Below, piece after piece: positions 8,565-64,000 of a stretch of DNA of 64,000 nt; position 1 is the first letter of the stretch; each line of letters opens with the position of its first letter. The position numbers and the translations under genes are program-made. The DNA is from Labrys wisconsinensis (GTDB lineage Bacteria > Pseudomonadota > Alphaproteobacteria > Rhizobiales > Labraceae): positions 682,001-746,000 of the forward strand of contig NZ_JAUSVX010000001.1 of assembly GCF_030814995.1 (NCBI RefSeq), read 5' to 3'. The notes beneath the pieces were generated by a model. It was given only the letters and a program-made list of their open reading frames with translations, ran no database searches and had not been told where the DNA came from.

Positions 8565-9368
8565 TTGGGATCGTCGTCGATGGTGACGCAAATATTGAAC
8601 GGCGTGGAACGTGAATGTTCCATTTTCGGCGCCCTGCTCAAGCGCGAGCTCCTGCACCGGTTCGGCGCCCGCTCGCTGGGATGGATCGAGGAAGTCGCCG
8701 CCATCGCCGTCCACATCCTCGCCTTCACCGTGCTGCGCCTGCTGCTCGGCGGCCGCAGCCATGGCGGCATGGAGATCCTGCCCTTCACCGTCATCGGCGT
8801 CATGACCTTCTGGAGCGTCCGCAGTGGCGTCTCCCTGGTCGCGACCACCCCGGGCGTCATGGTCCGCTATACCGAGTTCCCGCAGGTCAGCCTGCTCAAG
8901 GTCGCGCTGGCGCGCGGCGTCGTGAATGTCGCCCTGTGCCTGGCTCTCGCCTTCGCCGCCTTCCACGCGCTGGAGCTGCTCGGCTATTCCCGTCCGATCC
9001 GGGACGGCTTCATGGTGTTCTGCTGGCTCCTGCTCGGCGGCCTGCTCGGCATCGCCTGCGGCCTCGCGCTGATGTGGCCGTTCTACGTCTTCCCCTTCGC
9101 GCGAACGGTGCTCCTGGTCTTCTTCATGCGCGTCCTGGCAGTGGTCTCGGGCACTTTCTTCGTCTTCCGCGACCTGCCCTACTCGCTGCGGCCGTTCGCC
9201 CGCTGGATGCCGACGCTGCACATCAACGACAAGGCGCGCGAGGCCTATTTCTACTCCTTCCGGGCCGACTGGGCCGACCCGGACTTCGTCACGCTGACCA
9301 CGACCATCCTGTTCGGCCTCGGCCTGCTCAGCTGCGACGCGACGCGCCGGCGGATGGCCCGCGGCTGA
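8565..9368 (+). CDS. ABC-2 type (polysaccharide-export-like) membrane permease, orphan
   Basis: The product is 262-267 residues, starting at ATG 8580 (MVTQILNGVE) or TTG 8565; a GGAGGG at 8537-8542 sits closer to the TTG. It has about six hydrophobic segments in the ABC-2/Wzm-KpsM pattern, for example VVNVALCLALAFAAFHAL, and the C-terminal LRPFARWMPTLHINDKARE seen in capsule-export permeases. Such permeases move polysaccharide across the inner membrane with a separate ATPase, but none is adjacent: the next genes are an RND operon. The 231-base region before it (8334-8564) has a TTGACA at 8431-8436 and nothing else clear. A GC hairpin at 9373-9393 follows the stop. Confidence 0.75.
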   Translation: MGSSSMVTQILNGVERECSIFGALLKRELLHRFGARSLGWIEEVAAIAVHILAFTVLRLLLGGRSHGGMEILPFTVIGVMTFWSVRSGVSLVATTPGVMVRYTEFPQVSLLKVALARGVVNVALCLALAFAAFHALELLGYSRPIRDGFMVFCWLLLGGLLGIACGLALMWPFYVFPFARTVLLVFFMRVLAVVSGTFFVFRDLPYSLRPFARWMPTLHINDKAREAYFYSFRADWADPDFVTLTTTILFGLGLLSCDATRRRMARG

Positions 9369-61807: not shown

Positions 61808-62191
61808 CTACGCGGCATCTCCCGTGTGGTACGGCCTGATCAGCGCTTCGGCCGGGACCCCCCATTCGCGATTGAGCTTGTAGGCCTGGTTCATGGTGAG
61901 CGGGCGCTTGCGCTTCAGGATTTCGGAAGCTCTGGACTTGGAGCCCAGCAGGTCGGCGAAATCCTTCTGAGCATAGCCCTTCTGCTCCATGACATGGCGT
62001 ATCATGTCGATCGGGTCGGGATCGGGCATGGGGTAGTGCTTCTCCTCATAAGCGGAGATCAGATCCACCAGGACCAGAAAGCGGTCGCTCTCGGGTGATC
62101 CAGGCTCCGGCTCCCTGTCGAAATACGGTGCCACTTCCGCGAGAGCCCATTCATAGTCCGCCTCGGTGCGGATCGGTCGGATGTTGTCCAT
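61808..62191 (-). CDS. higA: HigA-type antitoxin (XRE family HTH)
   Basis: The protein is 127 residues from ATG 62191, whose A is the last base of the toxin's TGA stop. The N-terminal part, RTEADYEWALAEVAPYFDRE, is the HigA-type lead; the HTH is at about 70-115 (MEQKGYAQKDFADLLGSKSRASEILKRKR split over the two helices). It neutralises the HigB toxin and represses the operon through the palindrome at 62504-62520. The toxin-first gene order is typical of higBA. Confidence 0.92.
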   Translation of the reverse strand: MDNIRPIRTEADYEWALAEVAPYFDREPEPGSPESDRFLVLVDLISAYEEKHYPMPDPDPIDMIRHVMEQKGYAQKDFADLLGSKSRASEILKRKRPLTMNQAYKLNREWGVPAEALIRPYHTGDAA

Positions 62192-62496
62192 CACACTATC
62201 TCCGGGTTGATCCGGTCATATTCGGCATGCGTTCCGACGAATTTGATCAGTACGGCCCTGTGGCGGTAGGCGACGTGCACGATCAGGCGGAACTTGTTGC
62301 CACCGATGTCGAAAATGACGCGGTTATCGCCGACGAAATCCACGCTGCTGCCGAACGCGTCCTTGATATCCTGTGGACTCGCCCAGGTTGCCTTGGCAGC
62401 CTGAACGTACCAGGTTGACAAAGGCGCTTCGGCTTGGCGATGACGCTGCCAGAACTCTCTAAGGACGCGCTTCGCGATCACGTTCACGGCCGCCAT
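62191..62496 (-). CDS. higB: HigB-type mRNA interferase toxin
   Basis: The 101-residue product has the HigB (RelE-like) pattern: NVIAKRVLREFWQRH, STWYVQAAKATWASPQDIKDAF, FDIGGNKFRLIVHVAYRHRAVLIKFVGTHAEYDRI. The C-terminal KFVGTHAEYD, with His and Tyr, is the catalytic end of this family. It cuts mRNA at the ribosome. It is first in the operon, with a palindrome immediately upstream, and ends by sharing a base with the antitoxin start. It lies 220 bases from the CRISPR array. Confidence 0.93.
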   Translation of the reverse strand: MAAVNVIAKRVLREFWQRHRQAEAPLSTWYVQAAKATWASPQDIKDAFGSSVDFVGDNRVIFDIGGNKFRLIVHVAYRHRAVLIKFVGTHAEYDRINPEIV

Positions 62497-62715: not shown

Positions 62716-63874
62716 GTCGCCGCTGGGCCGCGCCGCGTTCCTTGCTAGAACGGCCGTCGTGCTCGCCCAACCCCGCCGCCGGTTGCGGTTGGGCCGCGCC
62801 GCGTTCCTTGCTAGAATGGGCAAGGCGCCCTCGATGGAGATCCATCTGTTGCGGTTGGGCCGCGCCGCGTTCCTTGCTAGAACTCCCGACGCAGGCGTGC
62901 GCCTCAGCGACCTGTTGCGGTTGGGCCGCGCCGCGTTCCTTGCTAGAACGTCGCAACAGTTGTCCGACGCCATGGGCTTGTTGCGGTTGGGCCGCGCCGC
63001 GTTCCTTGCTAGAACGCGCACCGACAAAGCGACACATGTCTACAAGTTGCGGTTGGGCCGCGCCGCGTTCCTTGCTAGAACCAGGGTGGCGGACGACAAG
63101 TCGCGGTCTGTGTTGCGGTTGGGCCGCGCCGCGTTCCTTGCTAGAACCGACACGCCGCCACACCTCGCCGGCCTCACGTTGCGGTTGGGCCGCGCCGCGT
63201 TCCTTGCTAGAACGGCCTATGCACGCTTGGCGCCATTGACTACGTTGCGGTTGGGCCGCGCCGCGTTCCTTGCTAGAACGCAGACCGACGCGGGGCGGCG
63301 CTTTGCTTAGTTGCGGTTGGGCCGCGCCGCGTTCCTTGCTAGAACTAGCAGCGTGATGCGCTGCCTGATGAGACCGTTGCGGTTGGGCCGCGCCGCGTTC
63401 CTTGCTAGAACTTCTGCCGACGTCTTCCTCTCTCCCCTGTCTGTTGCGGTTGGGCCGCGCCGCGTTCCTTGCTAGAACGATCTGCCAGAAAGCCAGCCGC
63501 CGCCAGCAGTTGCGGTTGGGCCGCGCCGCGTTCCTTGCTAGAACTGAATGCAATATCACTATCGCTTTGATAAGGTTGCGGTTGGGCCGCGCCGCGTTCC
63601 TTGCTAGAACCGATGCCTACAACGACGCCAAGATCATCCTGTTGCGGTTGGGCCGCGCCGCGTTCCTTGCTAGAACACCCTGATTGAGGACGAGGCCGCT
63701 TTTGCGGTTGCGGTTGGGCCGCGCCGCGTTCCTTGCTAGAACGGCGCTGTGCGCAGCGATGCCGCTGCCGGCGTTGCGGTTGGGCCGCGCCGCGTTCCTT
63801 GCTAGAACGAGGCCCGCAAGAACCTGACATCTCCAGCCGTTGCGGTTGGGCCGCGCCGCGTTCCTTGCTAGAAC
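62716..63874 (+). CRISPR. CRISPR array, 18 repeats of 36 bases and 17 spacers, type II-C-like
   Basis: Repeats start GTTGCGGTTGGGCCGC and end GTTCCTTGCTAGAAC, with spacers of 30 bases (one of 31, 63412-63442), giving a 66-base period. Repeats 3-18 are identical. Repeat 1 (62716-62751) differs at three positions near its 5' end (GTCGCCGC) and repeat 2 ends AAT instead of AAC. The GTTG start and GCTAxAAC-type end resemble type II-C repeats such as that of Neisseria meningitidis, which gives plus-strand transcription; the plus-strand terminator after the last repeat agrees. No cas gene lies to the left (higBA is there), so cas1, cas2 and cas9 should lie to the right. The 219-base space before the array (62497-62715) shows only the higBA operator. 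Confidence 0.97.
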
Positions 63875-63876
63875 GG

Positions 63877-63910
63877 CCCCCTGAAAACGCCTTGTTTTCA
63901 GGGGGTTTTT
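63877..63910 (+). terminator. Intrinsic terminator abutting the last CRISPR repeat
   Basis: CCCCCTGAAAAC, loop GCCTT, GTTTTCAGGGGG and TTTTT form a perfect 12-base stem with a U-tract on the plus strand, two bases after the final repeat. It would end the pre-crRNA transcript. On the minus strand no T-run follows, so it works mainly in the array direction. Confidence 0.9.
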
Positions 63911-63979: not shown

Positions 63980-64000
63980 TCAGAACAGCGTGAGTTGGTC
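63980..64000 (-). CDS. Possible C-terminal end of cas2 (partial, runs off the right edge)
   Basis: On the minus strand the last 21 bases read D-Q-L-T-L-F-stop in one frame, with the stop at 63980. Short QLxLF-type ends are usual for Cas2 proteins of type II-C systems, and a convergent cas9-cas1-cas2 operon next to the array is the usual layout. Only six codons are visible, so this is a pointer rather than an identification. Confidence 0.35.
   Translation of the reverse strand, partial: DQLTLF

Follow-up and report, generated by a model that had tools for sequence, protein, structure and literature searches.

A type II-C CRISPR-Cas9 locus of Labrys wisconsinensis with a predicted acquisition end beside cas2 and a candidate leader-terminator element

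Gene content and architecture of the locus

The window analyzed here, a stretch of 64,000 nt that occupies G000:C1:682001-746000 in the 8.9-Mb genome of Labrys wisconsinensis, ends inside a CRISPR-cas locus (Table 1). A reading of the sequence alone (hereafter the sequence-only reading) had presumed a cas2 gene to the right of the array; this gene is real and runs on beyond the window. When the contig was read further rightward (extension L005; window coordinate = L005 + 60000), cas2, cas1, and cas9 were all found, where that reading had proposed to look for them. Cas9 matches TIGR01865 (E = 9e-155), Cas1 matches the type II profile TIGR03639 (4e-67), and Cas2 matches TIGR01573. The three identities agree across Pfam, NCBIfam, and PADLOC, the last of which assigns the labels Cas1_II and Cas2_II, and the top-scoring solved structures for Cas9 are all Cas9. 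The operon comprises cas9, cas1, and cas2 only and lacks both csn2 and cas4, which therefore places it in subtype II-C, and the nearest relatives of its Cas1 are alphaproteobacterial. The array lies downstream of cas2 with its predicted crRNA strand pointing toward that gene, a layout common to the relatives, and the tracrRNA lies ∼5 kb to the right of the array, beside cas9. Rfam returned no match near the II-C locus.

Table 1. Coordinates of the features of the II-C locus. Positions are those of the window unless marked L005.
Feature	Position	Strand	Remark
II-C CRISPR array	62716..63874	+	18 repeats and 17 spacers; strand from tracrRNA
Repeat 1	62716..62751	+	'extra' and predicted oldest repeat; changes at positions 3, 6, and 8
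Repeat 2	62782..62817	+	C36T; ends TAGAAT
Last repeat	63839..63874	+	adjoins cas2; predicted spacer insertion site
Leader hairpin	63876..63906	+	13 pairs, covarying in relatives
IHF-consensus-like motif (YAANNNNTTGATW, 7/9)	63885..63897	.	position 11 after repeat
T-run after leader hairpin	63906..63910	+	intrinsic-terminator form for rightward transcription
cas2	L005 3980-4324; 3' end in window 63980..64000	-	stop codon at window 63980
cas1	L005 4321-5247, beyond window	-	profile match
cas9	L005 5367-8774, beyond window	-	1135 aa; profile match
tracrRNA	L005 about 8817-8902, beyond window	+	anti-repeat, hairpin, terminator

The 18 repeats share the 36-nt consensus GTTGCGGTTGGGCCGCGCCGCGTTCCTTGCTAGAAC, and the spacers measure 30 nt in 16 cases and 31 nt in one. 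Every number that the sequence-only reading gave for the repeats is correct: repeat 1 departs from the consensus three times and repeat 2 once, and repeats 3–18 show no differences among them. If the four changes were scattered at random over the 18 repeats, all would fall in the two leftmost with a probability of (2/18)^4, or ∼1.5e-4. No further degenerate copy was found to the left of the array, where the best match has 16/36 mismatches, the chance level. The change in repeat 2 gives it an end that resembles a -10 box more closely than does TAGAAC, with which the other repeats end.

Directly left of the array (61808-62496, minus strand) are a HigB-type toxin (PF09907, E = 6e-29) and an adjacent HTH antitoxin-like ORF. 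The same genome also carries a second CRISPR system, of type I-C, with cas8c, cas7c, cas4, and cas1c (L006 4290-9226; G000:C1:307290-312226).

A covarying hairpin and an IHF-like motif follow the last repeat

Eighty relatives were fetched by Cas1, and arrays lay near cas1-cas2 in 64 of them, giving 65 with the L. wisconsinensis array; in the relatives' arrays that were read, the repeats are oriented opposite to the cas genes. When the short flanks were folded as RNA, a hairpin with z < -2.5 was obtained in 56 of 65 cas2-proximal flanks versus 0/49 distal ones, and of another 40 loci, almost all from Pseudomonadota, 38 had the leader hairpin. Among the 14 leaders that share the L. wisconsinensis geometry, 8 of the 11 pairs have changed on both sides, and the covariation score is 0.664, compared with 0.202 ± 0.033 for shuffles and ≤0.24 for slid versions. 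A T-rich tail follows the hairpin in 36/65 leaders and is missing from the others. The terminator that had been read from the sequence after the last repeat is present as a hairpin with a T-run, but the presumed simple terminator proves to be a covarying hairpin kept in most relatives.

The hairpin also contains a motif resembling the IHF consensus. In opposite-strand reading (YAANNNNTTGATW), a match of at least 6/9 lies 11–13 nt from the repeat in 63 of 65 leaders, the set in which the motif was first noticed, versus 7.6 expected from shuffles; distal flanks have it in 1/49 cases. In an independent set of new loci, several of them related to one another, it was present in 24/24 from alphaproteobacteria (2.1 expected) and 13/16 from other Pseudomonadota (1.7 expected). 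Outside Pseudomonadota, where the controls were four plasmid loci only, a number too small to be decisive, 2/4 have a weaker motif and a few form hairpins. Both IhfA and IhfB are encoded in the L. wisconsinensis genome, above curated cut-offs. Santiago-Frangos et al. in 2021 reportedly included II-C among the subtypes in which some leaders have IHF sites. The element here extends over 11–36, which resembles the E. coli I-E IHF site, which spans -9 to -35 (PMC10011333), and the IHF-guided leaders of types I-E and I-F likewise have the motif within about 9–36 bp of the leader-repeat junction. They differ from the present case, in which the leader is transcription-downstream and the putative motif sits inside a terminator-like hairpin. 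A limited literature search found no published account of an IHF site nested within a terminator.

These observations suggest that the leader and the terminator coincide. For proteobacterial II-C systems we propose tentatively, at just short of even odds, that a single post-array element would serve as both terminator and adaptation leader, a covarying hairpin holding an IHF site at fixed repeat phase, with array transcription ending exactly at the insertion point. The chief competitor takes the hairpin to be a mere terminator between convergent genes and denies that the motif binds IHF, allowing it some other role such as direct contact with Cas1-Cas2; it concerns the detail of the leader and not the polarity of the array. 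We consider it a serious contender, if somewhat improbable. Convergence of cas2 and the array at the hairpin favors it, as do the T-rich tails in over half of the relatives and the hairpins with weaker motifs in a few loci outside Pseudomonadota. Against it, many hairpins lack a T-run, and between groups the centre of the hairpin is displaced by 5–8 nt, from 17 to about 22–25, while the motif keeps its distance from the repeat, so the motif is no by-product of the hairpin. The motif's excess over expectation in both sets of loci, the presence of both IHF genes, and the resemblance to the E. coli footprint likewise speak against it.

Two plasmid loci are worth recording. On pANAM02 of Bosea sp. 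ANAM02 (L094 8001-8427), a II-C cas9 and array have no cas1 or cas2 annotated beside them, and the locus still has the IHF-like motif and a leader hairpin in shortened form. On an Azospirillum thermophilum plasmid (L165 760-4004), cas9 is annotated as two overlapping ORFs, possibly through a frameshift.

The cas2-distal end of the array is predicted to be the older

Degeneracy of terminal repeats is strongly one-sided among the relatives. Both array ends fell inside the contig in 50 cases. Among these, the terminal repeat was mutated in 23/50 at the cas2-distal end versus 1/50 at the cas2-proximal end (discordant pairs 23 to 1, p = 3e-6), and 14 of 990 inner repeats were mutated. Within the distal ('extra') repeat, 58 of 68 mutations fall in the first 12 nt (21 arrays, that of L. 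wisconsinensis included). Conservation in phase with the repeat is confined to the cas2-proximal flank (A13, 1.3 bits; T19-G20, 0.8–0.9; G30, 1.1; T33-T36, 0.7–1.3), whereas the cas2-distal flank, aligned on the repeat boundary, showed no position-specific conservation, with information near 0. A leader that guides insertion would be expected to look like this, with sequence held in phase with the repeat on a single side.

For the L. wisconsinensis array itself, these sequence comparisons lend indirect support to an old left end and to acquisition at the right. The sequence-only reading had deduced the old left end from the degenerate repeats and had placed the entry of new spacers at the right, near cas2, with the adaptation leader downstream of transcription; the mutated terminal repeats and the one-sided phasing agree with both. 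Its proposed comparison of related arrays succeeded in part: the terminal repeats point to an old cas2-distal end, but no two arrays had spacers in common, none being shared among the 1,233 spacers of the relatives' arrays that were searched to polarize acquisition. A classic leader-driven array, with spacers entering at the left and repeat 1 the newest, its changes due to chance or an imprecise boundary, would agree with the transcription-upstream position of the left end, as in II-A. We regard it as very improbable, given the relatives' left flanks, which lack conserved sequence and structure alike, the concentration of degenerate repeats at the cas2-distal end, and the published acquisition at the other end in II-C.

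The crRNA strand is predicted from the tracrRNA

Read on the plus strand, the tracrRNA runs from a full-length anti-repeat through a GGC/GCC hairpin to a GC-rich terminator with TTTT (GGGGCGG...CCGCCCCTTTT). The computed plus-strand duplex of repeat and tracrRNA reaches -66.9 kcal/mol, with a lower stem, a bulge, and an upper stem. Because the tracrRNA has its anti-repeat and its terminator on the plus strand, the crRNA strand is predicted to be plus, rightward, toward cas2, in agreement with the direction first read from the array, and the degenerate repeats therefore lie transcription-upstream. In repeat 1, pairing of the first 22 nt with the tracrRNA drops from -38.8 to -32.2 kcal/mol and the lower stem is broken. 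A -10-like TAnnnT closes the repeats of this group, with TA at positions 31–32 in 90 of 92 distinct repeat consensuses and T36 in 76 of 92; the TAGAAC of L. wisconsinensis, in place of TAGAAT, makes a weak -10. That the crRNAs come instead from the minus strand, which would put the degenerate end transcription-downstream and restore classic polarity, is extremely improbable: the cas genes are on that strand and the minus repeat pairs with the minus anti-repeat (-58.4 kcal/mol), as any such pair must, but it is on plus that the tracrRNA has a hairpin and a T-run terminator after its anti-repeat, the stem-bulge-stem layout falls at the repeat 5' end in the plus duplex, the relatives' repeats end in the -10-like box in plus sense, and the post-array hairpin has its T-run on plus.

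No protospacers of the 17 spacers were found in phages, plasmids, or same-genus genomes, nor did the exact 21–23-nt 3' parts of three newer spacers match viral contigs; the strand therefore has no PAM-based check. In the array of Paracoccus lutimaris, two spacers each occur three times in a row. With 4 mismatches, one of these two sets matched DNA methylase genes of Rhodobacter phages; this was too slight a basis for calling a PAM and was set aside.

Relation to known II-C systems and proposed mechanism

We assign a probability of roughly 0.93 to the locus being a complete type II-C CRISPR-Cas9 system with the usual II-C polarity. The reversed polarity that the sequence-only reading put forward as a II-C trait is supported here but is no novelty: II-C systems are documented to acquire spacers at the transcription-downstream end (PMC12080349, PMC12638026, PMC6008519, PMC4283603), and its occurrence here is a known trait in another genome and no discovery. 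Orienting II-C arrays is an acknowledged problem, and II-C may hold subgroups with different acquisition ends (PMC12638026).

As in Neisseria meningitidis and Campylobacter jejuni, a cas9-cas1-cas2 operon has its tracrRNA beside cas9, the array lies downstream of cas2 and is predicted to be transcribed toward it, with a predicted acquisition end at cas2, and a candidate -10-like box stands at the repeat 3' end; the repeat sequence, its TAGAAC ending, and the GC-rich alphaproteobacterial host are different. A mutated upstream 'extra' repeat is likewise a published II-C property, where 60% of 357 such repeats carried mutations, which lay mostly within the first 15 nt (PMC12080349, Feussner et al. 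2025). The clustering of mutations in the distal repeats of the relatives agrees with this figure. The present array has the same first transcribed repeat mutated in its first nucleotides and the same weaker tracrRNA pairing; it differs in the single change in repeat 2, and nothing is new in kind. The locus of Mesorhizobium sp. Root554 is similar in its Cas1 (82% identical), near-identical repeat, hairpin geometry, and degenerate repeat (its positions 1, 4, and 7) at the matching end, but has 28 repeats, counted around masked stretches, and zero spacers in common.

Taken with published II-C work, the relatives suggest a mechanism in which the array is transcribed rightward, probably helped by the -10-like element that ends every repeat, and Cas1-Cas2 would insert new spacers at the right-hand repeat beside cas2, so that the leftmost repeat would be the oldest, the 'extra' repeat. 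Its crRNA would have no spacer, and decay of the 5' part of repeat 1, which is predicted to weaken tracrRNA pairing, may silence this useless guide, while the promoter-like 3' part appears retained, for which the -10-like box offers a plausible reason. The flank after the last repeat would act as adaptation leader and terminator-like hairpin at once, where bending by IHF at a site of fixed distance may guide Cas1-Cas2. If this unit of leader, terminator, and IHF site is real, it would explain how an array with a downstream leader grows without losing its terminator, would offer a simple criterion, read from sequence, by which to orient II-C arrays, and would make the IHF-dependence of II-C adaptation directly testable.
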